Assembly: GCA_016124845.1 (NCBI GenBank)
Contig: WGMW01000030.1
Span: forward strand, 1 to 64,000
DNA length: 64,000 bases
Reading direction: 5' to 3'
Source of the DNA: Flavobacteriales bacterium
GTDB taxonomy: Bacteria; Bacteroidota; Bacteroidia; UBA10329
Shown here: one piece after another, positions 12,001 through 28,815 of the stretch
Layout: each line of letters starts with the position of its first letter
How positions within the stretch are numbered: the first letter of the stretch is position 1
Made by a program: the position numbers and the translations under genes
The notes under the pieces: model-generated
What the model saw: the letters and a program-made list of their open reading frames with translations, nothing else
Told to the model about the DNA's origin: nothing
The model's database searches: none

Positions 12001-12505
12001 CAGTTGCAACGCCACCGTAACGGTGCTTGATACGATCAGCCCTGTGGCCGTTTGCCAAGACATTACAGTGCAACTTGATACGGCTGGAAACGCGATGATC
12101 GTGGCCGAGGAGATAGACAATGGTTCGAATGACGCCTGTGGAATACTCGGTTTTACTGCTGATGTGACCAGTTTCGATTGCTCGAATGTGGGAGCAAACA
12201 CCGTTGTGCTGACCGTTTCGGACAACAACGGAAACACATCAACCTGTTCGGCAACTGTAACCATTGAGGATAATGTGAATCCGACCGCGAACTGTCAGGA
12301 TCTGACCGTGACACTTGATGGCAACGGAACGGTGAATGTCTCAGCCGGAGAGGTCAATGATGGCTCGTTCGATTACTGCGCCATCGACTCCATGTTCATT
12401 GCGCAAAACACATTCACGTGTGCCGATCTTGGCTCCAACATCATCAACCTGACCGTGGTCGATGTGAACGGTAACACTGATTTCTGCGCAGCGGAGATCA
12501 CCGTT
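2..12505 (+). repeat. 51-copy tandem repeat array, about 237 bp period
   Basis: Tandem coding repeats. The first three start at about 14, 251 and 488, an exact 237-bp (79-codon) period, and are almost identical in DNA. Most other units diverge but keep CQNITVQLD, DNCG, FDC and NTVTLTVTDVNGN. Units 26-30 (about 6.1-7.4 kb) and 35-38 (about 8.4-9.4 kb) are again near-identical runs, a sign of recent tandem expansion or gene conversion. Four variant units (beginning ENN, with GGSNAxCG) recur at about 1976, 4677, 8119 and 9612. Confidence 0.95.
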
Positions 12506-15500
12506 CTCGATACACTCGCTCCAGTTATCATCGGTTGTCCGAACGACACGCTGATCGTGCCAGACAGCTCCAACTGCGAGCCTCCTGTATTCTGGACAGA
12601 GCCAACTGCGCAGGACAACTGTACACCGACACTTACAAGTGATTTCGCCCCAGGCGACAACTTCCCTGTTGGTACCACAACCGTGACCTACACGGCCACG
12701 GATGAATCGAGCAACAGTACCATCTGCTCGTTCGATGTGACCATTCAGCCTTCGCCCGTGGTGGTCAACGTTACTTCGCCCGAAGGGCCATGCGGTTACA
12801 ACTTGGGCTGTAGCGTTTCGCCAGATGGCGTGGCCACGGCCAATGTTTCGGGCGGATGTTTGCCTTACACATACCTGTGGACGGACGGCCAGACCACGCA
12901 GACCGCAACAGGACTTGCAGCAGGATTGTATGGCGTAACCGTAACCGATGCCAACGGAACCACCGTTGTCGGAACAGTAACGCTTACCGCACCTGATCAG
13001 TTGGCAACCGATAGCCTCACTTCTCCGCAGTACATCGGTGGTGCCAATGTTTCATGCAACGGAGCGGCAGATGGTGCCATTAACATCAATGTGGTCGGTG
13101 GTCAGGATTGCTTGAGCTACGATTATGCTTGGACAGGCCCGAACGGATTCACATCAACAGATGAAGACCTGACAGGACTTGAGGCTGGAACCTATACGGT
13201 GGTGGTTACCGATGCCATCGGATGTTTCTACACGGACAGCATTACACTTGTGGCGCCAGATGCCTTGGCGGTAGATTCGCTTGTGAGCGATTACAACGGA
13301 GTGAACATTTCGTGCGCGGGAGCGGCAGACGGTTCTATCGATCTGACCATTTCTGGCGGAGCCACACCATACAGCGTGAGCTGGAGCAACGGAGAAACGA
13401 CCGAGGACATTGACAGTCTGATGGCCGGAACTTACATCTATACGGTAACGGATGCGAATGGATGTTCAAGCACTGGATCCATCACACTTGTGGAACCTAC
13501 AGGAATGTCTTCGTCCATTGCGACTTCCGATTACAACGGCTATCAGGTCTCATGTAACGGCCTTGCCGATGGAAACATCGACCTGACGGTGAACGATGGA
13601 ACACAGCCGTATTCGTATCTGTGGAACACTTCGGCCACAACTGAAGATCTGGACAGCTTGGAGGCTGGAACCTACATTGTGACAATTACCGATGCCAATG
13701 GTTGTACGCTTACCGACAGCGTAACCCTGACGCAACCCGATTCGCTGGTGGTCTCACCCATCGATACCACCGTTATCAGTTGCAACGGAGCGCAGGATGG
13801 CGCATTTACGGTTGAAGCCACAGGTGGCGTTCCAACCTACGTGTTCGGTTGGTCTGATGGACAGACAGGGCCAACGGCAAGCAATCTGGCACCGGGCACG
13901 TTGATCGTGACCGCTACCGACCTGAACGGTTGTCAGGATTCCATTATGCTGGTGATGACCCAGCCGAACGAGCTGGAATCGTTCACAAACACGGTTTCTG
14001 ATGTGATCTGCTTCGGAGAGAGCAACGGCATTATCGATGTGGATGTGATCGGTGGAACCGCACCTTACACCTACGATTGGTCGAACGATTCGACCACGCA
14101 GGATCTGAATGGTGTTTCCGCTGGAACGTATCTGCTCGAAGTGACCGATGCGCACGGTTGCACCGATACACTTTCGGTAGTGGTGAACGAACCTCCGTTG
14201 TTGACGATGGTGGTCGATACCGTGATCGATGCGACCTGTAGCGGATCAACAGATGGTGCCATTACAGTTGAGGCAACGGGTGGAACTGCGCCATACGATT
14301 ACTTCTGGCCAGACCTGAACACAGGTGGAGCCACAGTTACGGACCTTTCTTCGGGTGTTTACGAAGTGCAGGTAACGGACGATCATGGTTGTACTTGGTC
14401 GATGAATGTGATTGTCGGTCAGCCAAGTTCCATCGAAGCGCAAATAGATGTGCAAACGGAGGTGAGCTGCAACGGTTCGGACGATGGTTCGGCCCTTGTA
14501 ACAGTTTCTGGCGGAACTGCACCTTACACGTATCTCTGGTCAAATAATGATACCGATTCGTTGGCAACAGGATTGGCCGCTGGACAGCATTTCGTAACGG
14601 TTACCGATGCAGGCGGCTGCGATACCACGCTGCTCTTCACCATCACCGAACCAACGGCTGTGACCATCGCTTGGGACACCATTTACAACGTGACCTGCAA
14701 CGGTTACACCAATGGTCAGATTCAGGTTGATGTGGCTGGCGGAACCGTTCCGTACAACGTGATGTGGAGCAATGGCGAATCTGGATACGTGGCGCACAAC
14801 CTTGGCGCTGGAACGCACACCGTTTATGTGACCGATGCCAACGGCTGTCTGGACAGCTTGAGCGCAACGGTAACCGAGCCGGACACGCTCGAATGGATCC
14901 AACACTCGACCAACATGGTCAGCTGTTTTGGTGGAAACGATGGAGAGGCCACGGTACAGGTTCAGGGCGGAACGCCTCCTTACAGCTACGCTTGGCCGGC
15001 CATTTCGCAGGTCGGAGAAACGGCAACGAACCTTTCGGCCGGATGGTACACGTTCATCGCTACGGATGCAAACGGTTGTTCTTACTCCGATTCCATCCAG
15101 ATCACACAACCAGATGAGATCATTGTTTCGGTCACTTCCGATACGGCCGTTTGTCCAGGAAGCGGAGTTACCATCACAGCTTCGGCAACAGGTGGCGCAG
15201 GCAACTACTCTTACTCGTGGGACAACGGTCTTGGCTTCGGAGCATCGCATGTGGTGAGTCCGAGTGCGGTGACAACCTACACGGTAGAAGTGTTCGATCA
15301 GAGCGGATGTCCAGCATCTCCAGCAAGCGTAACGGTGGATATTGCGGAGGTTCCCGTGGCGGCATTCAGTTCGTCTGCGGCTCAGCCTTGCGTGCTTCCA
15401 ACCGACATCAACTTTACCAACACCAGTACAGGAGCAACGGGATATGAGTGGCTGTTCGGCAACGGTCAGTTCTCTTCGGATGAGAATCCGACCACTACTT

Positions 15501-16402
15501 ACGGCAACCCTGGAACGTATACCGTAACGCTGATCGCGTCTTCAGGTGCAGGTTGCTCCGACACGACCTCTTCCACCGTGGTGATCGATGACGTGCCCGT
15601 TGTGGGCTTCAACTTGGACAATGCGCAGGGTTGTGCGCCATTGGTGGTCAACTTCAACAATACCAGCAGTACTGGATTGGAGTATGACTGGAATTTCGGA
15701 GATGGAACGACATCGAACATTTCGAATCCGATACATGCGTATAACATTCCTGGAGATTACGAAGTGAGTTTGATCGTGACCGCGCCAGGCGGATGTTCCG
15801 ACACGCTCACGTTGGCGGCAGGCGTTTCGGCCTACCCGTCACCGATCGCGGATTTCACAGCCAACTCAACCTCTTACCCAGAACCTGGAAACGAGTACGA
15901 GTTTGTGAACAACTCAACGGGTGCAACGCTTTACAACTGGGATTTCGGCAACGGAGTTCAGACCGATGATTACCAACCAACGTACGATTATCCAAGCTAC
16001 GGTGGTTACTTCGTGACGCTTACTGCCATCAACGAATTTAGCTGTGCCGACACGGCCGTTCACTACGTGAATGTGGAACTGAAGACCACGTTGTACGTGC
16101 CGAACGCGATGGGAATCGGACAACCTGGCGAAGCGGGCGTGTTCCTACCCAAAGGAAGCGGTCTGGCAGAATACCATGTTTGGGTGTTCGATAAATGGGG
16201 CAACCAGCTTTGGGAAAGCACGGCCCTCAATGGTGGCAGCCCTGCCGAGAGTTGGGATGGAACCTACAGAGGCGCAACCGTTCCGATGGGCGCATACGTC
16301 TGGAAGGTGAACGCGGTATTCATTGACGGTAAGGTTTGGGAAGGACAGGAACACCAAAAGGGTGGCGTGAGCAACACGGGTTCTGTCATGGTACTCTACT
16401 AA
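2..16402 (+). CDS. Giant T9SS-exported repeat adhesin, 5'-truncated
   Basis: The reading frame is open from base 2 and begins in the middle of a repeat, so the true start and signal peptide lie upstream; at least 5466 residues are present. Order of parts: 51 repeats of 77-82 residues (about residues 1-4168), one classical HYR domain (from about 4169), ten SprB-type repeats (about 4262-5040, each with a GG..PY.Y.W core and a TD.NGC end), one Ig-like unit, three PKD domains (from about 5118, 5199 and 5277) and a gliding-motility-type C-terminal domain (about 5361-5466, with YVPNAM, WDGTYRG and the end VMVLY). That last domain is the T9SS type B sorting signal, so export to and retention at the cell surface is expected. 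The repeats have four conserved cysteines (CQN, DNC, DC, STC), suggesting disulfides, and acidic DVDGGSxDN loops that could bind calcium (inference). Likely role: long stalk or adhesin. Ligand unknown. Confidence 0.93.
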   Translation, partial: STVTVLDTVSPTAICQNISVYLDGAGSATIVASDVDNGSSDNCSVSLSATPLSFDCSSTGTNTVTLTATDPSSNTDNCTSTVTVLDTVSPTAICQNITVYLDGAGSASIVASDVDNGSSDNCSVSLSATPLSFDCSSTGTNTVTLTATDPSSNTDNCTSTVTVLDTVSPTAICQNISVYLDGTGSASIVASDVDNGSSDNCSVSLSATPLSFDCSSTGTNTVTLTATDPSNNTDNCTATVTVADTTSPTALCQNFTVQLDATGNATISATDIDNGSSDNCAVASMPVSPNAFTCAEVGSNSVTLTVTDVNGNTSTCSATVTVEDNVDPSAVCQNITVQLDASGNLTIASADIDGGSTDNCSIASLTIDGGNTSQDFDCTNVGANTVTLTVADVNGNVSTCDATVTVQDTIDPTAICQDITIQLDASGNASISTTDIDNSSTDNCGIASITLDGGASTLNFDCSDVGVQTVTLTVTDVNSNVSTCTADVTVQDTIDPTAICQDITIQLDASGNASISTTDIDNSSADNCGIASITLDGGASSIDFDCSNVGTNTVTLTVTDVNSNVSTCTADVTVQDTIDPTAVCQDITIQLDASGNASITTTDIDNSSTDNCGIASITLDGGASTLNFDCSDEGANTVTLTVTDVNGNVSTCTADVTVENNIIPTVACQDITVYLDATGNVSIVAADVDGGSNAACGIASLTIDQDAFTCANVGANTVTLTGTDNSGNVSTCTSTVTVLDTISPDAVCQNITVQLDGAGSLTITSADVDGGSSDNCGIASLTIDGGNISQNFNCSNVGANTVTLTVTDVNSNVSTCDAIVTVQDTVDPSAVCQNITVQLDATGNLTIASAEIDGGSSDNCGIASLTINGGNTSQDFDCSQVGANTVTLTVTDVNGNISTCDATVTVQDTIDPSAVCQNITVQLDANGQLTLQSLDIDGGSADNCGIASVTIDGGNASQDFDCASVGTNTITLTVTDVNGNVSTCDATVTIEDNVDPTAVCQNITVQLDGTGNLTVLATDIDGGSTDACGVASVTIDGGNASQNFDCSNVGTNTITLTVTDVNGNASTCDATVTIQDTVDPAAVCQDITVQLDATGNASISTIDIDNGSTDNCGIASITLDGGASSLDFDCSNVGVNTVTLTVTDVNSNVSTCTANVTVQDTIDATAVCQNITVQLDASGNATITGADVDGGSTDNCGVASLDVSQGAFDCSNVGVNTVTLTVTDANGNTSTCTADVTIQDNVDPTVVCQNITVYTDANGDVTIVAADVDGGSTDNCGIANLSINNDAFDCNDLGANVVTLTVTDVNGNVSTCNATVTVEDTIAPTPVCMDIVAELDPTGNVTVAPGDVDNGSFDNCAIVDITLDPNTFTCAEVGFNTVTLTVEDVAGNTATCTAQVDVQDNVLPSAVCQDITVQLDASGNAIITPVMVDNGSTDACGSVTPTIVSPSSFDCSNVGVNIVTLTVEDQNGNTSTCASTVTIQDTVNPVAVCQNITVQLDGTGNASIAPADVDGGSFDNCAIDNMTVSPNSFTCAEEGANTVTLTVTDVNGNVSTCDATVTVENNVTPTVSCQNITVYLDGAGTTSITASDVDGGSNAACGIASLTVDPSAFTCAEVGANTVTLTGTDNSGNVSMCTATVTVLDTISPTAVCQNVTVQLDASGNASITAADVDGGSTDNCAVASLSATPTAFGCAEVGANTVTLTVTDANGNSSTCDATVTVEDTIDPTIVCQNITVQLDATGNISITGADIDNGTADNCSTVGSTLTLDVTPGAFDCSNVGVNSVTLTATDENGNSSTCTADVTVQDNEAPNALCQNITIYLDAAGNAAITPADIDNGSSDNCAIASMVVSPNSFTCSGVGANPVTLTVTDVNANVASCNATVTVLDTVSPNAICQNITVQVDAAGNASIVPSQVNNGSNDACGIASLVLDVNTFNCSVVGANTVELTVTDNNGNVSTCTSTVTVEDNVNPNAICQNITVQLDANGDASITASQIDNNSTDNCAVASLDVNPSTFDCSNVGANTVTLTVTDVNGNTDNCTATVTVQDNIDPTAACQNITVQLDAAGQLTIASADIDGGSFDNCSIASLTIDGGNTSQDFDCTNVGANTVTLTVTDVNGNVSTCDATVTIQDTISPTAVCENITVQLDGVGQLTIASADIDGGSSDNCGIASLEIDNGNTSQDFDCTNVGANTVTLTVTDVNGNVSTCDATVTVQDTVSPSAVCQNITVQLDAAGQLTIASADIDGGSSDNCGIASLEIDNGNTSQDFDCNSVGANTVTLTVTDVNGNVSTCDATVTVQDTISPAAVCQNITVQLDAAGQLTIASADIDGGSSDNCGIASLEIDNGNTSQDFDCNSAGTNTVTLTVTDVNGNVSTCDATVTVQDTISPSAVCQNITVQLDAAGQLTIASADIDGGSSDNCGIASLEIDNGNTSQNFDCSSIGTNTVTLTVTDVNGNISTCDATVTVQDTVTPTIVCQNITVQLDANGQATITGVDLDGGTSDNCGQPADLTFTSDVNDFDCSNVGVNTVTLTVTDQNGNISTCSADVTIEDNVDPTAICQNITVYLDGAGNASIVAADVDGGSTDNCGIDNLAVSQDAFTCAEVGANTVTLTVTDVNTNTATCTATVTVQDTASPIALCQDITIQLDATGNATISATDVDNGSSDNCAIASMVVSPNAFTCAEEGDNPVTLTVTDVNGNVSTCSSTVTVENNVAPNVFCQDITVYLDGTGNISILADDVNGGSNASCGLDTLTVSPNAFDCSNVGANTVTLTAVDNSGNVSTCDATVTVLDTISPTAACQNITVQLDAAGQLTITSADVDGGSSDNCGIASLEIDNGNTSQDFDCNSVGANTVTLTVTDVNGNVSSCDAIVTVEDTISPSAICQNITVQLDANGQLTIASADIDGGSNDNCGIASLEIDNGNTTQDFDCTSVGANTVTLTVTDVNGNVSTCDATVTVQDTVSPTAVCQNITVQLDANGQLTIASADIDGGSNDNCGIASLEIDNGNTTQDFDCTSVGANTVTLTVTDVNGNTSTCDATVTVQDTVSPSAICQNITVQLDANGQLTIASADIDGGSSDNCGIASLEIDNGNTTQDFDCTTVGTNTVTLTVTDVNGNASTCDATVTVEDTINPTIVCQDITIELDATGTVVLTAVELDGGTTDNCGSVTFDIDATSTQWSCSDVGTHTVTLTATDANGNVSTCDAQVTIENNVEPTVSCQNITVYLDGTGNISIAAADVNGGSNASCGLSSLDVSPNALDCSNIGANTVTLTATDSTGNVSTCTATVTVLDTINPTAVCQNITVDLTAAGNIVIDAADLDGGSSDNCDVASVTVDSGQLNTTLDCSTVGQNTVTVTVTDVNGNVSTCDATVTVEDNTNPTAACANVTVQLDANGESQITPVLVDNGSSDNCGIDSLAVLPTSLNCNNIGTNSIVLTVYDVNGNISTCVATVTAQDTIAPTAVCTDITVQLTGNGTAVIAAGDIDDGSFDNCGIQSLSIDVNNFDCSNIGPNAVELTVTDVNGNVSTCSANANVVDEVDPNVICQNLSVYLDANGQVTIAAEDIDNGSTDACGIDTMTLNVYQFDCSDIGVNPVTLTVTDNYGNFDVCQAIVRVFDTISPVTVCQDITIQLDATGTANIVAADVDGGSTDNCGIDALSVDQTIFDCSQVGANTVTLTVVDVNGNQSTCQATVTVEDNINPNANCQDITIYLDAGGNASIDPSDINAGSNANCGVDTVFVNQYDFDCSNVGNNTVTLTVVDNNGNASTCTSNVEVLDTISPTAICQDLITQVNAAGDASITAIQVDNGSFDNCGILSMVLDDRNFDCSDVGVVQVVLTVTDVNGNASTCTANITVQDTIAPVASCTPVVVQIGANGTVTIAPEDVDLNSSDNCAIDNLALDQDTFDCSEVGSNTVTLTVTDVNGNSSSCTAQVIVEENIPPVALCQNLTVYLDAQGDVSIAPADVDAGSSDNCAIDTMYVTPNDFTCSGVGANPVVLTVEDVNGNVSSCNATVTVLDTISPVAVCQDITVQLDTAGNAMIVAEEIDNGSNDACGILGFTADVTSFDCSNVGANTVVLTVSDNNGNTSTCSATVTIEDNVNPTANCQDLTVTLDGNGTVNVSAGEVNDGSFDYCAIDSMFIAQNTFTCADLGSNIINLTVVDVNGNTDFCAAEITVLDTLAPVIIGCPNDTLIVPDSSNCEPPVFWTEPTAQDNCTPTLTSDFAPGDNFPVGTTTVTYTATDESSNSTICSFDVTIQPSPVVVNVTSPEGPCGYNLGCSVSPDGVATANVSGGCLPYTYLWTDGQTTQTATGLAAGLYGVTVTDANGTTVVGTVTLTAPDQLATDSLTSPQYIGGANVSCNGAADGAININVVGGQDCLSYDYAWTGPNGFTSTDEDLTGLEAGTYTVVVTDAIGCFYTDSITLVAPDALAVDSLVSDYNGVNISCAGAADGSIDLTISGGATPYSVSWSNGETTEDIDSLMAGTYIYTVTDANGCSSTGSITLVEPTGMSSSIATSDYNGYQVSCNGLADGNIDLTVNDGTQPYSYLWNTSATTEDLDSLEAGTYIVTITDANGCTLTDSVTLTQPDSLVVSPIDTTVISCNGAQDGAFTVEATGGVPTYVFGWSDGQTGPTASNLAPGTLIVTATDLNGCQDSIMLVMTQPNELESFTNTVSDVICFGESNGIIDVDVIGGTAPYTYDWSNDSTTQDLNGVSAGTYLLEVTDAHGCTDTLSVVVNEPPLLTMVVDTVIDATCSGSTDGAITVEATGGTAPYDYFWPDLNTGGATVTDLSSGVYEVQVTDDHGCTWSMNVIVGQPSSIEAQIDVQTEVSCNGSDDGSALVTVSGGTAPYTYLWSNNDTDSLATGLAAGQHFVTVTDAGGCDTTLLFTITEPTAVTIAWDTIYNVTCNGYTNGQIQVDVAGGTVPYNVMWSNGESGYVAHNLGAGTHTVYVTDANGCLDSLSATVTEPDTLEWIQHSTNMVSCFGGNDGEATVQVQGGTPPYSYAWPAISQVGETATNLSAGWYTFIATDANGCSYSDSIQITQPDEIIVSVTSDTAVCPGSGVTITASATGGAGNYSYSWDNGLGFGASHVVSPSAVTTYTVEVFDQSGCPASPASVTVDIAEVPVAAFSSSAAQPCVLPTDINFTNTSTGATGYEWLFGNGQFSSDENPTTTYGNPGTYTVTLIASSGAGCSDTTSSTVVIDDVPVVGFNLDNAQGCAPLVVNFNNTSSTGLEYDWNFGDGTTSNISNPIHAYNIPGDYEVSLIVTAPGGCSDTLTLAAGVSAYPSPIADFTANSTSYPEPGNEYEFVNNSTGATLYNWDFGNGVQTDDYQPTYDYPSYGGYFVTLTAINEFSCADTAVHYVNVELKTTLYVPNAMGIGQPGEAGVFLPKGSGLAEYHVWVFDKWGNQLWESTALNGGSPAESWDGTYRGATVPMGAYVWKVNAVFIDGKVWEGQEHQKGGVSNTGSVMVLY

Positions 16403-20186: not shown

Positions 20187-22169
20187 CTACTGCTTCACCA
20201 ACCGCTGTGTAGCCACTTTCTTCTCATCCCGAACGGTGACCGAGTAAATGCCATGGCTCCAGTCAGATACAGGTAATGTGAACTGGTTCTGAACGGTAGC
20301 AACGTTTTTGGAGTAAACCACCTGTCCAAGGTTGTTCACCACAGAAATAGCAACTGATTTTTCAAACTCACTAAGATCGATGGTAAGTGTTTCCGTGGCT
20401 GGGTTCGGCCACATACGGAATGATTCGTTTTGGGTCGCTTCCTCAATTCCAGTATGTACCAACGGCCCCCAAGTGTAATCAATGGAAATGGTGTCGAACT
20501 GGATGCTGGCGTAGTAGGTCGAATCGCCATTTGCATCGGTGGTCCATGTTTCTTCATATTGCGACTGCGAGACCAGATTTTGGAAATTGCTGAAACTGCT
20601 GTACATCGCATCGTTTCCTACCACAAAGACCCACGTTTGTCCGCCATTTGTCGGGCATGCCCGATGTCCGTTTATCTCGCCAATGCAACTTCTTCTGGCA
20701 GCCACATAATTGTCGTCCTGTTTGCCAATGAGCCATAGACCATCTTCCACAATTTCGCTGAAAGCTGTGTCTGGCCAATGTAACGCAACATCCGTTCCCT
20801 GAAAAGGAAGAATCGGAGAAACAGGTTCAGGCCGATACATGACGAGTGCTACGTTATGCGACTGTTCCACATACGGTAGGTGCATGCTTGCGTGGTCATG
20901 GTCGTGATCTTTCCAATCAGCGGTCACCGGGCCAGAAGCACTGAAAACAGCGGTCACGCCAACGTTGGCCACAACGGGCCATTCCTGGTACCCGACCTTC
21001 CCTTTCCAAAAATCCTGAATAGAAGATAGCGTAACGCTTTGGTTCTTGAAAACCGCCACATCTTCACCACAGATCACCGTGCTTTTCGAAGCAGCACTCA
21101 GTCCTTCCGCAATGCTGGGGTACTGTTGAAGAGGGAAGCCGGACAGCGGTTGTAAAATGGAAAAATCCACCTGATTCCACAGATTTGAATCCTCCAAAAG
21201 CGTCACCGTTTGCGTGATCACTTCTGGGTGAAAGTAGGCTCCCGAACTCCATTGGAAAACCGTTTTATCAACGGAACTCATCGACTGGTTGATCACAAAT
21301 CCTTCCTCCAGCGTGTGGCCGACCGACATGATCGTATCAAGATTTGCAACCCATGAATCGGTGATGTCTGAAAAGTCGATAGAACTGGTTGCCAAGAATC
21401 CGCCTGCGTGCGAAGCGTTTGAAGGTGCGGGCCCGAGACCTGTAAGTAAATAGATGAGGCTGTTGTGGTTTTGCCCAAACGGATTCTCATACTTGCTGAC
21501 GTAGTTTCGGCCAGCGGCCGGAAAGAAGGAACCTTGGTCGTTCGCAAGCATCAGGATCTCCTTCAGCAACTTTTTGCTGGCCTGTGTGGCCATGTCTTTT
21601 ATCTGTGGATCCTGCGCAAAATCGGCCAGGTTCAGCAGTCCGCTCAGACAGTATGGACTGTAAGTGGAGGAGAAGAATTCGTAGAATCCGTAATCGATCT
21701 TCAGTTGCAGGTAATGCTTCAACCGCGCTTCCAATGTGGCATCGGCCGGGCGTCCTGTGTACTCGTGCATGATCCAATCGGAACTCATCCACATGATCAT
21801 GTGGTTCTCCGACCAATAGTTCCGGACGGTGTCTTCGTAATTGATCCAATATGGGACAGAATTCAATGGCGGGATGATCTGCGAATCGTACGCTCCGTTG
21901 CTAAGCATCATCACGCGAATCAGTTTAACAATGGTGAAATCGCTGGTTGAACGTGTTTGTAATGCCGAATAGATACTGTCCAGTTCCCCTTGGTCGACCG
22001 TTACACCTTCGTAGGCCTGAATTGTAATGGCATCGCCATTGAAATTGGTCAGAGCGCTGTCGATGTATTGTTGCCTACGGTCTTCAAATGTTTGTCCATT
22101 GGCCATTTGAGTTGATACGGCTACGATCGTTGCGACCGCAAAAAACGGAATGATGATGTGTTTGAACAT
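20187..22169 (-). CDS. Large T9SS type A cargo protein of unknown function
   Basis: ATG at 22169 is chosen over 22289 because it opens a signal peptide (MFKHIIIPFFAVATIVA...ANGQ). The C-terminal 85 residues are a T9SS type A sorting domain: MWPNPATETLTIDL, VVNNLGQVVYSK, HGIYSVTV and a final basic QRLVKQ. The 570-residue middle begins with a helical part (HMIMWMSSDWIMHEYTG, LKIDYGFYEF, SGLLNLADFA) followed by a beta-rich part with HDHDHASMHLPY and WVFVVGND. This helix-then-beta plan resembles chondroitin/heparin-type lyases and related toroid enzymes, but I do not recognise a defining motif, so I give no activity. The protein should be exported across the outer membrane and either released or held at the surface. 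It is divergent from the suf operon. Confidence 0.85.
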   Translation of the reverse strand: MFKHIIIPFFAVATIVAVSTQMANGQTFEDRRQQYIDSALTNFNGDAITIQAYEGVTVDQGELDSIYSALQTRSTSDFTIVKLIRVMMLSNGAYDSQIIPPLNSVPYWINYEDTVRNYWSENHMIMWMSSDWIMHEYTGRPADATLEARLKHYLQLKIDYGFYEFFSSTYSPYCLSGLLNLADFAQDPQIKDMATQASKKLLKEILMLANDQGSFFPAAGRNYVSKYENPFGQNHNSLIYLLTGLGPAPSNASHAGGFLATSSIDFSDITDSWVANLDTIMSVGHTLEEGFVINQSMSSVDKTVFQWSSGAYFHPEVITQTVTLLEDSNLWNQVDFSILQPLSGFPLQQYPSIAEGLSAASKSTVICGEDVAVFKNQSVTLSSIQDFWKGKVGYQEWPVVANVGVTAVFSASGPVTADWKDHDHDHASMHLPYVEQSHNVALVMYRPEPVSPILPFQGTDVALHWPDTAFSEIVEDGLWLIGKQDDNYVAARRSCIGEINGHRACPTNGGQTWVFVVGNDAMYSSFSNFQNLVSQSQYEETWTTDANGDSTYYASIQFDTISIDYTWGPLVHTGIEEATQNESFRMWPNPATETLTIDLSEFEKSVAISVVNNLGQVVYSKNVATVQNQFTLPVSDWSHGIYSVTVRDEKKVATQRLVKQ

Positions 22170-22260: not shown

Positions 22261-22277
22261 TTTAGAATTATTCCAAA
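22261..22277. promoter_or_regulatory. Upstream operator-like palindrome of suf operon (O1)
   Basis: TTTAGAATTATTCCAAA, an imperfect copy of the palindrome at 22341-22363 with one changed base per arm. It lies just upstream of the -33 element of the suf promoter. The shape (TTAGAATnATTC) resembles PerR/Fur-family 7-1-7 boxes; the factor is inferred only. Confidence 0.55.
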
Positions 22278-22293
22278 CAAATCGACCAAAAGC

Positions 22294-22324
22294 TTGGTGG
22301 CCTACCTCGATTGAGGTATTTTTG
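22294..22324 (+). promoter_or_regulatory. suf operon promoter
   Basis: TTG at 22294-22296, 20 bases of spacer, then TATTTTTG at 22317-22324, an exact match to the Bacteroidota TTG / TAnnTTTG pattern. Transcription would begin near 22330, giving a leader of about 55 bases that carries the second palindrome. Confidence 0.7.
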
Positions 22325-22340
22325 CCGTGAAATTCACGCT

Positions 22341-22363
22341 CTATTTAGAACCATTCTAAATAG
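22341..22363. promoter_or_regulatory. Downstream operator-like palindrome of suf operon (O2)
   Basis: Perfect inverted repeat CTATTTAGAA - CCA - TTCTAAATAG directly downstream of the predicted start site. Together with O1 it brackets the promoter, the arrangement expected for repression by a dimeric regulator at one or both sites. Confidence 0.6.
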
Positions 22364-22383
22364 AAAATGTTAGGTCGATAGGC

Positions 22384-22713
22384 ATGATAACAGTTTCAGA
22401 AAGCGCAAAAAAGAAGGCGGTAAGCCTGATGGAAGAAGATGGTAAAAACCCCATGGAGGCATTTATTCGTGTGGGTGTGAAAGGCGGTGGTTGTTCGGGA
22501 CTTTCGTACGAACTGACCTTCGACACCGACCTGAAAGAGGACGATAAGGTGTTTGAGAACAACGGAATCAAGGTAGTGGTTGATAAGAAAAGCTTCCTAT
22601 ACCTCATCGGAACCGAGTTGGATTATTCGGGCGGATTGAACGGAAAAGGCTTCGTTTTCAATAACCCGAATGCCAGCAGAACCTGTGGCTGTGGTGAGAG
22701 CTTCGCGGTTTAA
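22384..22713 (+). CDS. sufA: Iron-sulfur assembly A-type carrier (HesB/IscA family)
   Basis: A-type carrier that accepts Fe-S clusters from the SufBCD scaffold and passes them on. At 109 residues it has the usual family length and the three cluster-binding cysteines: C37 in GGGCSGLSY and C101/C103 in the C-terminal TCGCGESF. ATG at 22384 is the first start after the promoter and O2. First gene of the suf operon; sufB follows after 35 bases that contain a small AT-rich hairpin overlapping the stop codon. Confidence 0.95.
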   Translation: MITVSESAKKKAVSLMEEDGKNPMEAFIRVGVKGGGCSGLSYELTFDTDLKEDDKVFENNGIKVVVDKKSFLYLIGTELDYSGGLNGKGFVFNNPNASRTCGCGESFAV

Positions 22714-22748: not shown

Positions 22749-24209
22749 ATGGCAGAGCAGAACACGTTACTGAAGGAATTCACCGAGAAGGAATACGAGT
22801 ACGGTTGGAGCATCGACATTGAGGCCGATCAGCTTCCGAAAGGGCTCAACGAGGAGATCGTTCGTGCAATTTCCACCAAGAAGAATGAGCCCAAGTGGCT
22901 GACCGAATGGCGATTGAAAGCGTTCCGCTATTGGTTGACGATGGAAGAGCCGACTTGGGCGCATGTCAAGTATCCGAAGATCGATTTTCAGGACATTATC
23001 TATTACTCGGCACCGAAGAAAAAGCCAGAGATCGGCAGTTTGGATGAAGTGGACGAGGAACTGCTTGCCACATTCGAAAAGCTGGGAATTTCGCTCGAAG
23101 AGCAGAAACGATTGTTGAATGTGGCAGGTTCGAATGTGGCGGTTGATGCCGTGTTCGATAGTGTGTCGGTGAAGACCACTTTTCAGGAAACGCTGCGCGA
23201 AAAAGGCATCATTTTTTGCTCGTTCAGCGAAGCAGTTCAGAACCATCCCGATTTGGTGAAAAAGTACCTCGGAAGTGTGGTTCCGTACACGGACAACTAT
23301 TACGCAACACTCAATTCGGCCGTATTCTCAGACGGTTCGTTCTGCTACATCCCGAAAGGCGTGCGTTGCCCGATGGAACTTTCCACATACTTCCGCATCA
23401 ATGCGATGAACACAGGGCAGTTCGAGCGAACACTGGTCATTGCAGATGAGGATAGCTACGTAAGTTATCTGGAAGGTTGCACTGCACCGCAGCGCGATGA
23501 AAATCAGCTACATGCAGCGGTTGTGGAACTGGTGGCATTGAAAGGTGCGGAGATCAAGTATTCAACTGTTCAGAACTGGTTCCCAGGCGATAAGAACGGA
23601 AAAGGCGGCATCTACAACTTCGTAACGAAGCGTGGCATATGTGCGGGCGATTACGCGAAGATTTCTTGGACGCAGGTGGAAACGGGTAGTGCCGTTACTT
23701 GGAAATATCCGTCAACGATCCTGAAAGGTGATAACACCATCGGAGAATTCTACTCCGTGGCCGTGACGAACAACTACCAGCAGGCAGATACGGGAACCAA
23801 AATGATCCACTTGGGAAAGAATACCAAGAGCACGGTCATCAGTAAAGGAATTTCGGCAGGGAAGAGCAACAACTCGTACCGCGGATTGGTGCGAATTGGG
23901 AAGAACGCGACCAATGCGCGCAACTTCTCGCAATGCGATTCGCTGCTACTGAGCGACACGAGCGGGGCGCATACGTTCCCGTACATCGAATGCGGAAATA
24001 AGACCGCAAAAGTGGAGCACGAAGCCACCACAAGCAAGGTGGGCGAAGACCAGATTTTCTACTGTAATCAGCGTGGTTTGGACACCGAGCAGGCCATCGG
24101 CCTCATCGTGAATGGATATTGTAAAGAAGTGTTGAACAAGTTACCGATGGAGTTTGCCGTGGAAGCGCAAAAACTGCTGTCGGTCTCCTTGGAAGGCAGC
24201 GTTGGATAA
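22749..24209 (+). CDS. sufB: Fe-S cluster assembly protein SufB
   Basis: Core scaffold subunit of the SufBCD complex, on which Fe-S clusters are built in the cytoplasm. The 486-residue product is full length and carries the family blocks [22 protein letters not shown] (part: [12 protein letters not shown]), [20 protein letters not shown] (20 residues), [19 protein letters not shown] and the C-terminal GQIFY-like [12 protein letters not shown] followed by IVNGY. The conserved cysteine in LEGCTAP and the histidines of the beta-helix are present. It is followed by a CACAGA-type palindrome before sufC, which is unusual inside an operon whose products are needed in fixed ratio. Confidence 0.97.
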
Positions 24210-24317: not shown

Positions 24318-25082
24318 ATGAGTTTACTGAGTATCAAAAACCTGAAAGCCCGTGTAGAGGAGAAGGACATCCTCAAAGGGTTCAACTTGGAAGTAAATCC
24401 AGGTGAAGTGCATGCCATTATGGGACCCAACGGTTCTGGAAAGAGCACGTTGGCTTCCGTTCTCGCAGGAAATGAGAGCTACGAAGTAACCGATGGCGAA
24501 GTCGAGTTTGATGGGAAAGACCTGTTGGACATGGAGCCAGAAGAGCGTGCTCGCGAAGGGCTGTTCTTGGCATTCCAGTATCCTGTGGAAATTCCTGGCG
24601 TGAGCAACGTGAATTTCATGAAATCTGCGGTGGCAGAGATCAGAAAGCACCGTGGTCTTGAGCCATTCGAAGCCAAAGACTTTCTCGCTTACATGAAGCA
24701 GAAAAAGGAATTGGTCGAGTTGAGTGGAAACTTGGCTGGCCGTTCGGTAAACGAAGGTTTTTCGGGCGGTGAGAAGAAGCGAAACGAGATCTTCCAAATG
24801 GCGATGCTCGAACCGAAGTTGGCCATCTTGGATGAAACGGACAGCGGCCTCGATATTGACGCACTTCGTATCGTTGCAAACGGTGTGAACAAGCTCAAAT
24901 CGAAGAACAACGCTTTCATCGTCATTACGCACTATCAAAGACTTTTAGATTACATCGTACCTGATTTTGTTCATGTGTTGTACAACGGCAGAATTGTACG
25001 TTCGGGCACAAAGGAATTGGCGCTTGAGTTGGAAGAAAAAGGCTACGATTGGATCAAGGACGAAGTAGCGGCAGAAGCATGA
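24318..25082 (+). CDS. sufC: Fe-S assembly ATPase SufC
   Basis: ABC-type ATPase of the SufBCD complex; ATP binding drives the conformational change needed for cluster assembly. Walker A GPNGSGKST at 36-44, the Suf-specific signature FSGGEKKR at 148-155, and Walker B LAILDETDSGLD at 168-179; the length of 254 is typical and there are no membrane segments. Start ATG 24318 comes 12 bases after the palindromic element. Its stop overlaps the next start (ATGA at 25079-25082), so sufC and sufD are probably translationally coupled. Confidence 0.97.
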   Translation: MSLLSIKNLKARVEEKDILKGFNLEVNPGEVHAIMGPNGSGKSTLASVLAGNESYEVTDGEVEFDGKDLLDMEPEERAREGLFLAFQYPVEIPGVSNVNFMKSAVAEIRKHRGLEPFEAKDFLAYMKQKKELVELSGNLAGRSVNEGFSGGEKKRNEIFQMAMLEPKLAILDETDSGLDIDALRIVANGVNKLKSKNNAFIVITHYQRLLDYIVPDFVHVLYNGRIVRSGTKELALELEEKGYDWIKDEVAAEA

Positions 25083-26266
25083 GCGAAGCGATGACAACAT
25101 CGATTTTATCTGAGTTGATTTCAGGGGCGAAAGCTGCCGATGCAGAGTGCGTTTTAGCGCAAGAAGCCGAAGCGTTTCTGGCCGAAAACGGTATTCCATC
25201 CAAGAAGCACGAGGATTGGAAATACACCAACATCAAGCGGTTGTTTGATAACGGTTTGGAGTTGGTTTCTGCCAAGGATGTGAGTTTCAATTCCGTTGAT
25301 GGTGTGGAGGCGCGATTGATGGCATCAATGCCAGAGGGCAGACAGCCAGGTTTCACGGGCATTCACACCAAAGAAGCACATGCGGCTTTGAACACCGCGC
25401 TTTTCGAGAAAGTGTTGGTGGTTCGCGTGAAGAAGGGAATGCAGGTTTCGGATGAATTGATCCTGAACCAAGCGATTGAGTATGCTGGAAACAACTTCGC
25501 GGCAACGCGGTTACTGATCGAGTTGGAAGACAACGCTTCGCTGAAATGCCAACTGCATTTTACGGGCTCGAATGCTTCGGAGAAATCGCTGCACAATCAT
25601 GTGACTGAGATCTTCGTTGGGCAGAATTCTCAGCTTGAATTCAATATTGTTCAGGAGATTACCGAAGGAAACTTGGTGAACACTACGGAGGTTTTCTGTC
25701 AACGCGATGCGAATTTCACCACCAACACATTCCAGTTGAGCGGAAAATTGCTTCGCAATAACCTTAACATCCGCCTGCAAGGCGAAAACGCAGAAACGCA
25801 TCTGAACGGTTTCTACATGCTGAAAGGCAGGGAATTGTTCGATAATCACACGTTAGTGGATCACCTCGTGCCGCATTGCGATAGCAACGAAACCTACCGT
25901 GGCATTTTGGGTGGAAAGAGTACGGGTGTGTTCAACGGAAAAGTGTTCGTGCATCCTGATGCGCAGAAGACGAACGGCTACCAGCAGAACAACAATATTC
26001 TGCTGACCGATGATGCTACTATGAACTCGAAGCCTGAGTTGGAGATCTATGCCGATGACGTGCGTTGCTCGCATGGAAGTACCACGGGTCAGTTGGATGA
26101 GGACGCGGTATTTTACCTTCGCGCCAGAGGTTTGGATGAGTTCGGGGCAACAGCTTTGCTACTGACGGCCTTCGCGGGCGAGGTTTTGAACAGCGTTTCG
26201 AGCGAAGAATTGCGTAATATTCTCGAACAGAAAATTCAGGCGAAGCTGAAAGAAATGCGAGCATGA
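25079..26266 (+). CDS. sufD: Fe-S cluster assembly protein SufD
   Basis: Partner scaffold of SufB in the SufBCD complex. ATG 25079, overlapping the sufC stop by four bases, is preferred over the earlier in-frame codon at 25049, which lies inside sufC. The 395-residue product shows the SufD blocks HEDWKYTNIK near the N-terminus, LVDHLVPHCDSNETYRGI, KVFVHPDAQKTNGYQQN and the C-terminal DDVRCSHGSTTGQLDEDAVF. These include the HPDAQKT and CSHG motifs diagnostic of the SufB/SufD beta-helix interface. The stop overlaps sufS by ATGA (26263-26266). Confidence 0.96.
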   Translation: MSEAMTTSILSELISGAKAADAECVLAQEAEAFLAENGIPSKKHEDWKYTNIKRLFDNGLELVSAKDVSFNSVDGVEARLMASMPEGRQPGFTGIHTKEAHAALNTALFEKVLVVRVKKGMQVSDELILNQAIEYAGNNFAATRLLIELEDNASLKCQLHFTGSNASEKSLHNHVTEIFVGQNSQLEFNIVQEITEGNLVNTTEVFCQRDANFTTNTFQLSGKLLRNNLNIRLQGENAETHLNGFYMLKGRELFDNHTLVDHLVPHCDSNETYRGILGGKSTGVFNGKVFVHPDAQKTNGYQQNNNILLTDDATMNSKPELEIYADDVRCSHGSTTGQLDEDAVFYLRARGLDEFGATALLLTAFAGEVLNSVSSEELRNILEQKIQAKLKEMRA

Positions 26267-27489
26267 GCGAGACGCTGGTGGATATTGAAAGCATACGGGC
26301 GCAGTTCCCAATTCTACAAAGAGAGGTCAACGGCAAGCCGCTGATCTACTTCGACAACGGGGCAACTTCACAGAAACCGCAGTCGGTCATTGATGCAATC
26401 ACCCACTATTACGAGCACGAGAACAGCAACATTCACCGTGGTGTGCATACGCTGAGCCAAGAGGCGACTTCGGCCTACGAGGACGTACGTAAAAAGGTGC
26501 AGAAATTCATCAATGCCGAGCACGACCACGAGATCATTTTCACTTCAGGAACCACGGGCGGCATCAACTTGGTGGCCAGTTCGTTTGGAGAAAACCTTGT
26601 TAGAAAAGGCGATGAAATTCTTATCACCGCCATGGAGCACCACAGTAATATCGTGCCGTGGCAAATGCTTTGCGAGCGGAAAGGCGCACACCTTAAAGTG
26701 GTGCCGATCAGCAAGGAAGGTGAACTCGATCTGGAGGAATACGAGCGGTTGATCGGACCGAAAACCGAGCTCATTTCGTTGGTGCATGTTTCCAACTCTT
26801 TGGGCACCATCAACCCGATCAAAAAGATGATCGATATTGCGCATGCGCAGAACATTCCTGTGTTGATTGATGGTGCGCAGGCCATTCACCACACGCCAGT
26901 GGATGTTCGAGAATTGGATTGCGATTTCTACGTCTTTTCATCACACAAAATGTATGGCCCGACAGGTGTCGGAATTCTCTACGGCAAGGAAGAATTGCTG
27001 AACGATATGGCGCCTTATCAGGGTGGTGGCGATATGATCAAGAATGTGACGTTCGAGAAGACGATCTACAACGACCTTCCGCACAAATTCGAGGCGGGAA
27101 CGCCCAATATTGCAGGCGGAATTGGATTGGGCGCGGCCATCGATTTCATCAACAGTATCGGTTACGATTTTATCATGCAACACGAAGCTGAACTGTCACG
27201 ATTTGCCACTAGTCAATTGCGCGACATCAAAGGTTTGCGGTTCATCGGCACGGCCAAAGAACGTGCGGGTTTGGTTTCGTTTGTATTGGATGGCATTCAT
27301 CCGTACGACACGGGTGTGATCTTGGATAAACTGGGTCTTGCGTTGCGAACGGGACATCATTGCACGCAGCCCGTCATGACCTTTTTTGAAGTGCCAGGAA
27401 CCGTACGCGCGTCATTTGCGGTGTACAACACGAAACAAGAAGTCATCCGACTTGTTGAAGGAATAGAGCGTGTTAAAAGAATGTTTTAA
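26263..27489 (+). CDS. sufS: Cysteine desulfurase SufS
   Basis: PLP enzyme that takes sulfur from L-cysteine and, stimulated by SufE, supplies it to the SufBCD scaffold. The 408 residues are full length. PLP-binding lysine K229 lies in SSHKMYGPTG; the persulfide cysteine is C367 in RTGHHCTQPVM; EHHSNIVPWQ and DGAQAIHH bind the cofactor. Start ATG overlaps the sufD stop. After sufS the operon is interrupted by a toxin-antitoxin pair before sufE, although sufE is its functional partner. Confidence 0.97.
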   Translation: MSETLVDIESIRAQFPILQREVNGKPLIYFDNGATSQKPQSVIDAITHYYEHENSNIHRGVHTLSQEATSAYEDVRKKVQKFINAEHDHEIIFTSGTTGGINLVASSFGENLVRKGDEILITAMEHHSNIVPWQMLCERKGAHLKVVPISKEGELDLEEYERLIGPKTELISLVHVSNSLGTINPIKKMIDIAHAQNIPVLIDGAQAIHHTPVDVRELDCDFYVFSSHKMYGPTGVGILYGKEELLNDMAPYQGGGDMIKNVTFEKTIYNDLPHKFEAGTPNIAGGIGLGAAIDFINSIGYDFIMQHEAELSRFATSQLRDIKGLRFIGTAKERAGLVSFVLDGIHPYDTGVILDKLGLALRTGHHCTQPVMTFFEVPGTVRASFAVYNTKQEVIRLVEGIERVKRMF

Positions 27490-27527: not shown

Positions 27528-27761
27528 ATGACAGCAGTACAACTCAAAACAAGAATAAAGGAACGGTTGGAAAAGACCGATGACCCTAAGTTGCTTGAAG
27601 CGGTCTATGAGATGCTTAAAGCCGCTGAAGATGAAGTGGTCAAGTTCACACCAGAGCAGCGCGCCCGTGTAATGCGTGGACTGGAGCAGATGAGGAACGG
27701 AGAGGTATGCTCGCATGAGGAAACGATTGAGGATTTGCGAGAATGGTTGAAAAAGAAGTGA
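27528..27761 (+). CDS. Antitoxin-like small helical protein
   Basis: A 77-residue, highly charged helical protein directly upstream of a RelE/ParE-like toxin and overlapping it by 19 bases, the usual antitoxin position. The C-terminal third (EEKTI-like ETIEDLREWLKKK) looks like a toxin-binding helix. I do not see a clear ribbon-helix-helix DNA-binding part, so it belongs to the short addiction-module antitoxins seen in Bacteroidota. It sits between sufS and sufE. Confidence 0.75.
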   Translation: MTAVQLKTRIKERLEKTDDPKLLEAVYEMLKAAEDEVVKFTPEQRARVMRGLEQMRNGEVCSHEETIEDLREWLKKK

Positions 27762-28039
27762 TCTGGACGGGTGAGGCTAAGTTCGATGTCCAGAACATTC
27801 TTGATTATTGGATTGAACGGAATGGTTCTCCCACATACTCTGAGAAACTGCTTGATGAGTTCGATGAAATGGGAGAACAGATCGGAAAATATCCTTCAAT
27901 TGGAAAGACCACGGAAATTGAAGATGTTCGATACGCGATTGTACGAACGTATGCGATTACTTACCACATATCTGAGAACATCATTCACATCCTATCTGTT
28001 TGGGATGAGAGACGCGACCCTGAAACACGACCGGTCTGA
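27743..28039 (+). CDS. RelE/ParE-superfamily toxin
   Basis: 98 residues with the RelE/ParE fold: an N-terminal helical hairpin (AKFDVQNILDYWIER, YSEKLLDEFDE), a KYPSIGK turn, the strand pair RYAIVRTYAITYHI, and the terminal strand IIHILSVWDERRDP. WDxRxDP at the end is typical of ParE-type toxins of this phylum. RelE members cut mRNA on ribosomes and ParE members poison gyrase; sequence alone does not decide here. The start is internal to the antitoxin gene. The toxin stop is nine bases before the sufE ATG, so the pair is embedded in the operon. Confidence 0.85.
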   Translation: MVEKEVIWTGEAKFDVQNILDYWIERNGSPTYSEKLLDEFDEMGEQIGKYPSIGKTTEIEDVRYAIVRTYAITYHISENIIHILSVWDERRDPETRPV

Positions 28040-28048
28040 ATTTTGAAA

Positions 28049-28492
28049 ATGATAGCATTGACAACGATAGAGGAGAAAGAACAGGAGATCATCGAGGAGT
28101 TTTCGCTTTTTGATGATTGGATGGACAAGTACGAGCACATCATCGGACTTGGGAAGGAACTGCCACTGATAGAGGAAAGTCTGAAAACGGACGACTTGCT
28201 GATCAAAGGCTGTCAGAGCCGCGTTTGGCTTCATGCCAAGCTGGAAAATAGCAAAGTGATTTTCACAGCCGATAGCGATGCCATCATCACCAAAGGCATA
28301 ATTAACCTGCTTATCCGGGTGCTTTCTGGCGAAAAACCAGATGATATTGTGAATGCCGACATGACCTTCATCGACCAGATCGGATTGAAGGAGCATTTGT
28401 CGCCAACACGTTCGAACGGATTAGTGAGCATGGTGAAGCAGATGAAGCTGTACGCGCTGGCATTCAAAACCCAACTGAACAACCCGTCATGA
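28049..28492 (+). CDS. sufE: Sulfur acceptor SufE
   Basis: Accepts persulfide from SufS and passes it to SufBCD. ATG 28049 is chosen over a TTG six bases earlier. The 147-residue product has the SufE fold: FDDWMDKYEHIIGLGKELP, the active cysteine C55 in LIKGCQSRVWLH, and GLVSMVKQMK at the C-terminus. It overlaps the sufT-like gene by four bases (ATGA at 28489-28492). The upstream neighbour is the toxin gene rather than sufS. Confidence 0.95.
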   Translation: MIALTTIEEKEQEIIEEFSLFDDWMDKYEHIIGLGKELPLIEESLKTDDLLIKGCQSRVWLHAKLENSKVIFTADSDAIITKGIINLLIRVLSGEKPDDIVNADMTFIDQIGLKEHLSPTRSNGLVSMVKQMKLYALAFKTQLNNPS

Positions 28493-28815
28493 GCCTTTCG
28501 TACGATGAAGTGAAGCAACTGGAAGAGCGCATCATTGATGTGTTGCGCACGGTTTACGACCCGGAAATTCCAGTGGATATTTACGAGTTGGGGTTGATCT
28601 ACGAAGTGAAAGTAGATGCTGATGGAAAGGCCGATGTGCTGATGACGTTGACTTCGCCAAGCTGCCCAGTTGCCGAGAGTTTGCCGCTCGAAGTGGAAGA
28701 AAAAGTCCGTGGCGTGAAAGGCGTTACGCAAGGCAAGGTAGAACTCACCTTCGACCCACCTTGGGACAAGGACATGATGAGCGAAGCAGCTTTGCTTGAA
28801 CTTGGCTTTATGTAA
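28489..28815 (+). CDS. sufT: SufT-like DUF59/MIP18 Fe-S maturation protein
   Basis: 108 residues of the DUF59 (MIP18) family, which helps load Fe-S clusters on client proteins. Diagnostic pieces are VYDPEIPVDIYELGLIY, LTSPSCPVAE with the conserved cysteine, and the C-terminal FDPPWDKDMMSEAALLELG. Overlaps sufE by ATGA and overlaps the following membrane-protein gene by one base (TAATG). This order, sufE then DUF59 then DUF2480, is a normal Bacteroidota arrangement. Confidence 0.93.
   Translation: MSLSYDEVKQLEERIIDVLRTVYDPEIPVDIYELGLIYEVKVDADGKADVLMTLTSPSCPVAESLPLEVEEKVRGVKGVTQGKVELTFDPPWDKDMMSEAALLELGFM

Follow-up and report, generated by a model that had tools for sequence, protein, structure and literature searches.

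In Escherichia coli, suf is repressed by Fur at plentiful iron. The Fur box is spelled TGATAATNATTATCA, the PerR box of Bacillus TTATAATNATTATAA and the ICE box of alphaproteobacterial Irr TTTAGAA-N3-TTCTAAA. Irr represses at low iron (PMC3413700) and is described as an activator or a repressor according to the position of its box (PMC5587712). In Caulobacter crescentus, iron-bound Fur is reported to repress uptake genes and to activate sdhCBAD, nuo and acnA directly (PMC6120978). Among Bacteroidota, the Fur homologue PgFur of Porphyromonas gingivalis, which belongs to a separate branch, is reported to have bound no iron in vitro and not to have bound the canonical E. coli Fur box (PMC6613475).

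The suf promoter of the window (the whole 64-kb stretch of DNA that was analysed) was flanked by two palindromes on the + strand, both confirmed in the sequence: TTTAGAATTATTCCAAA upstream at 22261-22277 (distal box) and CTATTTAGAA-CCA-TTCTAAATAG downstream at 22341-22363 (proximal box). The distal box contained one mismatch. The proximal box extended to a perfect 11-3-11 palindrome at 22340-22364, with arms at 22340-22350 and 22354-22364 and a core at 22344-22360 (TTTAGAACCATTCTAAA). Together, the two formed a 19-nt direct repeat with a spacing of 83 nt. Only two sites within one mismatch of TTTAGAANNNTTCTAAA were present in the window, both at the suf promoter, compared to a simulated mean of 0.0067 per window (64-kb window simulated 300 times with a first-order Markov model). 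At up to three mismatches the window was unremarkable, with 5 sites found and 2.2 expected. The 7-1-7 reading fitted, as TTAGAAY-N-RTTCTAA, and a 7-1-7 inverted repeat with an odd centre was read at 22345-22359 (TTAGAAC-C-ATTCTAA), as proposed in the initial annotation, which had recognised a Fur-family shape here. The proposal that the two palindromes are sites for one dimeric regulator likewise gained support. The 23-bp form of the box was close to TTATTTAGAATNATTCTAAATTA, found at the act genes. None of six spellings of the box turned up in the open-access papers searched, and no account of such a box in Bacteroidota, of its geometry or of its spread was found in them.

The promoter between the palindromes was read as TTGG-N19-TATTTTTG at 22294-22324 and presumably belongs to the Bacteroidota class, to which we assigned it by consensus. 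Its candidate -33 element, TTGG (22294-22297, + strand), was taken as such from what we understand to be the Bacteroidota -33 consensus, and most sequences in the genus alignment retained the TTG. The -7 element, TATTTTTG (22317-22324, + strand), was of the TAnnTTTG type and kept in all six genus loci. A sigma-70-like TTGACA/TAGAAT promoter, whose -10 overlaps the distal box, was suggested by a consensus scan and was dropped in favour of the conserved TAnnTTTG element. A second dyad, TACCTCGATTGAGGTA (22303-22318, + strand; terminator-like in a scan), overlapped the -7 element and is a candidate site for another regulator. The last TA of this TACC-N8-GGTA dyad formed part of the suf -7 element in 5/6 genus loci and in 5 of the 34 phylum suf loci compared (L020, L022, L023, L042, L098). 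Its inner bases varied among lineages and were often still complementary. It differs from what we take to be the IscR type 2 site. Its location over the -7 element may leave room for an IscR-type co-input at suf. Several suf promoters (L024, L028, L037, L050, L053, L064, L082, L093), many from genomes titled Cytophagales or Cyclobacteriaceae, shared a GAACCTTAA-like stretch approximately 20-30 nt before the -7 element.

The operon itself, on the + strand, ran in the order iscA-like, sufB, sufC, sufD, sufS, sufE and sufT-like. It comprised an iscA/erpA-like gene (22384-22713; Pfam PF01521, NCBIfam TIGR00049), sufB (22749-24209; NCBIfam NF008773, above cut-off), an ABC ATPase gene named sufC by its operon position (24318-25082; Pfam PF00005), sufD (25079-26266; TIGR01981, above cut-off), sufS (26263-27489; TIGR01979, above cut-off), sufE (28043-28492; Pfam PF02657) and a gene for a SUF-associated, sufT-like protein (28489-28815; PF01883; TIGR02945 at 142.9 bits, cut-off 143.4). 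A small open reading frame and a ParE-like toxin gene (PF05016) lay within the operon at 27528-28039, between sufS and sufE. A divergent gene on the - strand (20187-22169) encoded a protein with a type IX secretion sorting tail (Pfam PF18962), and the distal box stood 91 nt upstream of its ATG. An open reading frame for a 5,462-residue repeat protein (14-16402) took up the first quarter of the window. No Fur or Rrf2 gene that might point to the regulator was found adjoining suf when 80 suf loci were searched with phmmer.

Genus suf loci were fetched by protein and not by motif, and iscA was obtained from 6/9 genus genomes. The proximal box (at most one mismatch) and the -7 element were present in 6/6 of these loci. 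The distal box, a genus-level addition, was present in 4/6, where it always preceded the proximal box by 83 nt and the -7 element by 56 nt. For the phylum, a SufB scan yielded 80 loci, 79 of which were scored for a box with at most two mismatches within 700 nt. A box was found in 39/79 upstream regions, compared to 2/79 for the reversed-pattern control, and it started 8-30 nt after a perfect -7 element at 26 loci, compared to none for the control. These distances clustered at 10-18 nt, with four at 23-26 nt and the host genus at 27 nt. When the range was set to 900 nt, with 75 loci usable, 38 boxes were counted, compared to 2 for the control. By these criteria the box was absent from five suf loci titled Ignavibacteria, Ignavibacteriales, Melioribacter or BMS3Abin04 (L063, L077, L083, L085, L089). 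The box is conserved at suf across Bacteroidota, usually just past the -7 element, and it also marks other iron genes. Its usual place 10-18 nt past the -7 element suggests that the suf proximal box sits at a repressor position. The initial annotation had described the palindromes as bracketing the promoter. Both sides do hold a box, but the two differ in standing, the proximal one being a putative phylum-wide operator and the distal one a lineage addition.

The proximal palindrome might instead work at the RNA level, as a hairpin of the suf leader that affects stability or translation. The leader fold contained an 11-pair stem, and the z-score of the stretch was -3.09, as such a hairpin would predict. 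However, the promoters of act, nqr and sdh have the same letters upstream, outside the transcript. Furthermore, it was the letters that were conserved rather than the pairing, and mismatches in several suf sites break pairs. The letters of the proximal box are probably kept as DNA, because the box recurs outside transcripts, and we consider the hairpin reading highly improbable.

The host genome, a 4.36-Mb draft of 65 contigs, was scanned for the box with the reversed pattern as control. Exact boxes numbered 3, compared to 0 for the control, and sites with at most one mismatch numbered 8, over seven loci: suf (two sites), nqrA, act, mrp/apbC, sdhC, cytochrome oxidase subunit III and a LuxR-type response regulator. 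The act gene (for the cytochrome subunit of alternative complex III) and the gene for cytochrome oxidase subunit III were named by eye, and the others by family match. The genome-wide scan proposed in the initial annotation thus returned the motif at nqrA, act, sdhC and mrp/apbC. At mrp/apbC, the box overlapped the start codon (L007, 1501-1517). At up to two mismatches the 17-mer was not enriched in this genome (18 sites versus 20 for the control). Of the ten sites with exactly two mismatches, one directly preceded an imelysin gene and another a DUF4856 gene (both by Pfam); three were inside open frames, three had no locus, one was before a glycosidase-like gene and one was by a CRISPR array. 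The CRISPR array (L016, 308-1285) adjoined a cas2-like gene, as judged by eye. The 23-bp form of the box gave 11 sites versus 3 for the control and added a site before a nitroreductase gene.

Across 39 genomes, 42 exact boxes were found, compared to 7 for the reversed control. Nine genus genomes contained 18 of them (control 0), and all 18 were at suf (7), act (7) or nqrA (4). Outside the genus, 11 of the 24 exact sites were at iron, heme, Fe-S or respiratory genes, namely suf (2), act (2), feoAB or feoA (2), heme oxygenase (1), hemA (1), a DUF4856-like gene (2 boxes) and a TonB-plug protein (1). Of the remaining sites, three were before LuxR-type regulators and ten were of unclear context. 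Heme oxygenase, FeoAB, the TonB-plug protein and two of the regulators were named by Pfam, and the rest by eye. LuxR-type response regulators with a box just before or over the start were seen in four genomes (L010, L104, L128, L129).

The box accordingly recurred at iron-uptake and iron-using genes. The link between suf and iron status suggested in the initial annotation is supported by the presence of the same box at iron, heme, Fe-S and respiratory genes. The suggested link to peroxide status found no support. No recognised peroxide gene was found at the own-genome sites that had loci (three two-mismatch sites had none), and the metal-site residues described below are not those of PerR. Peroxide control was rejected on these two grounds, regulon content and metal-site residues. 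By its gene contexts, the box marks a putative iron regulon and not a peroxide regulon.

The position of the box at respiratory genes differed from that at suf. For act, 58 class genomes matched, and 30 loci from among these were scored for a box with at most two mismatches. An upstream box was found in 24/30, compared to 1/30 for the control, and its start lay 52 (1 locus), 62 (10), 63 (4), 73 (6) or 74 nt (3) before the TAnnTTTG element. The nqrA box was at 62 nt in 5/6 genus loci and at 73 nt in one other genome, and outside the genus most class nqrA promoters had no box. The sdhC box was present in 7/7 genus loci, at 52 or 53 nt in six and at 64 nt in one. For the 37 act, nqrA and sdhC distances, the mean resultant was 0.95 (period near 10.6-10.8), which 0/20,000 uniform draws reached, a statistic that overstates the case because related genomes are not independent. 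Many families were nevertheless represented among the act genomes, and the distances fell into three separate phase classes. The grouping of these boxes at 52-53, 62-64 and 73-74 nt upstream suggests helical phasing, of the kind that an activator would show. At act, the phase-locked spacing is a sign, from sequence only, of what would be direct activation. In the act boxes (L214-L243), the promoter-distal half TTTAGAA was kept in 22/24 and the proximal half TTCTAAA was exact in 9/24, as judged by eye.

For iron uptake, a box was found upstream of FeoB in 9/30 loci (0/30 for the control), the other 21/30 having none. Relative to a perfect -7 element, three of the feo boxes started 8, 13 or 15 nt downstream and two started 26 and 35 nt upstream. 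No feo box was found 45-85 nt before a perfect -7 element in the 30 loci. From these distances and those at suf, the uptake and suf boxes therefore mostly overlap the promoter or start, and the respiratory boxes lie upstream and in phase.

The distal suf box fits neither group. At 56 nt upstream of the -7 element, it is approximately half a helical turn off the 52, 62-63 and 73-74 nt series, and it was rejected as an activator site. Its 83-bp separation from the proximal box corresponds to approximately eight turns. Because it is off the activator phase, yet approximately eight turns from the proximal box, the distal box is more likely to be a helper operator than an activator site, and may serve cooperative or looped repression or control the divergent gene. 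This gene was divergent to suf in five genus genomes, the host included. The distal box may serve that gene alone, so that the twin boxes would be two independent operators of two genes. Its place 91 nt before the divergent ATG would suit such a role, as would a TAnnTTT-like element for the divergent gene 80-82 nt beyond the distal-box start (four genus genomes). Genome G006 weighs in the same direction, lacking the distal box although both the proximal suf box and the divergent gene are present. Conversely, the 83-bp spacing to the proximal box was identical in 4/4 loci, though much of the interval was also conserved, and a distance of 80 nt to the divergent element is off the activator phase series. 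We regard this two-operator arrangement as possible but rather doubtful.

The candidate reader of the box is the single Fur-family protein of the host genome, its only PF01475 protein (Pfam FUR, 101.2 bits, cut-off 23.1). At least one such protein was found in 36/39 genomes of relatives, and exactly one in 25/39. Thirty Fur orthologues were aligned with three sequences from solved structures (two Fur chains and PerR). The metal site was His/Glu/His/His/Glu in 30/30 orthologues, as expected of Fur, compared to His/Asp/His/His/Asp in PerR. The protein did not pass as PerR, with Glu and not Asp at positions 85 and 104 in 30/30 and no NCBIfam PerR cut-off reached. The recognition helix carried Asn in 30/30 orthologues, as in PerR, the two Fur chains having Arg. 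In Bacillus, this choice of Asn or Arg decides between PerR-box and Fur-box binding. A Fur-type sensor with a PerR-type reader would fit the box spelling TTAGAAT-N-ATTCTAA. Best scores to the Fur equivalog models were 78.8 bits (NF051892, cut-off 220) and 75.9 bits (NF006999, cut-off 146), and those to the Irr models were 31.2 and 31.0 bits (cut-offs 170 and 150), none of which reached the cut-off. Autoregulation of fur was considered and rejected, since no box with at most one mismatch was found upstream of fur in 30 loci; L179 had one two-mismatch and one three-mismatch match, and L167 had one three-mismatch match.

The same regulon logic might be served by another iron or Fe-S sensor, either a DtxR/MntR-type repressor or an Rrf2-family (IscR-like) protein. 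An Fe-S or metal sensor would be just as well suited to a regulon of suf, Fe-S and heme enzymes and iron uptake, and the genome holds two Rrf2 proteins. Moreover, genome G036, listed as 99% complete, had no PF01475 match yet kept an act box (L220; two mismatches, distance 62), possibly owing to an assembly gap at fur. However, both Rrf2 proteins scored below every IscR cut-off. One had HypR as its best score after the superfamily model, and the other adjoined ABC-exporter-like genes, as judged by eye. An odd-length 7-1-7 palindrome of such spelling is in Fur-family style, and Fur is nearly universal among the relatives (36/39), as the box is likewise widespread. A sensor outside the Fur family is therefore judged unlikely. 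Both palindromes are instead probably operators of the genome's single Fur-family iron sensor, which would repress suf and activate act, nqr and sdh.

At plentiful iron, iron-loaded Fur would occupy the proximal box, over the transcription start, and turn suf off. At scarce iron, Fur would leave this box and suf would be made. Through boxes that lie over the start, iron-loaded Fur would repress iron uptake. Where the same box stands 52, 62-63 or 73-74 nt before the -7 element, bound Fur would touch RNA polymerase and turn on act, nqr and sdh, which encode iron-rich complexes of respiration.

The repression of suf proposed here is the same as that by Fur in E. coli, but the spelling of the box is not that of the Fur box TGATAATNATTATCA, and the TACC-N8-GGTA dyad is unlike what we take to be the IscR type 2 site. 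Bacillus PerR shares the 7-1-7 palindrome and the recognition-helix Asn with the present case; it differs in that Asp85 and Asp104 are replaced by Glu in 30/30 orthologues here, and no peroxide genes were recognised among the examined sites. Alphaproteobacterial Irr is also a Fur-family protein for which box position is described as deciding between activation and repression (PMC3413700, PMC5587712). Irr acts at low iron, and the present protein scored only 31 bits against the Irr models (cut-offs 150-170). With uptake and suf at repressor positions and respiration at activator positions, the regulator would therefore be active at high iron, unlike Irr. Caulobacter Fur resembles the present case in its reported repression of uptake and direct activation of sdh (PMC6120978), which we infer here from box positions. 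It differs from the present case, as far as the cited account goes, in that the targets here include alternative complex III and Na+-NQR and the recognition helix carries Asn, not Arg. Dual control by Fur is already known from Caulobacter, and the case here looks like an undescribed Bacteroidota version.

We somewhat favour the broader view that Bacteroidota Fur is a position-dependent dual regulator. Boxes approximately 55, 65 and 76 bp upstream of the start, on one helix face, would activate alternative complex III and, in some lineages, Na+-NQR and succinate dehydrogenase, and boxes over the start would repress suf and uptake. This would constitute a phylum-wide iron-sparing switch without a small RNA, operated by a Fur-type sensor with a PerR/Irr-type reader. 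A 23-bp box with repressor and helically phased activator geometry leads to testable predictions on iron control of respiration, Fe-S assembly and uptake in the Bacteroidota, one of the main phyla of the gut and the sea.
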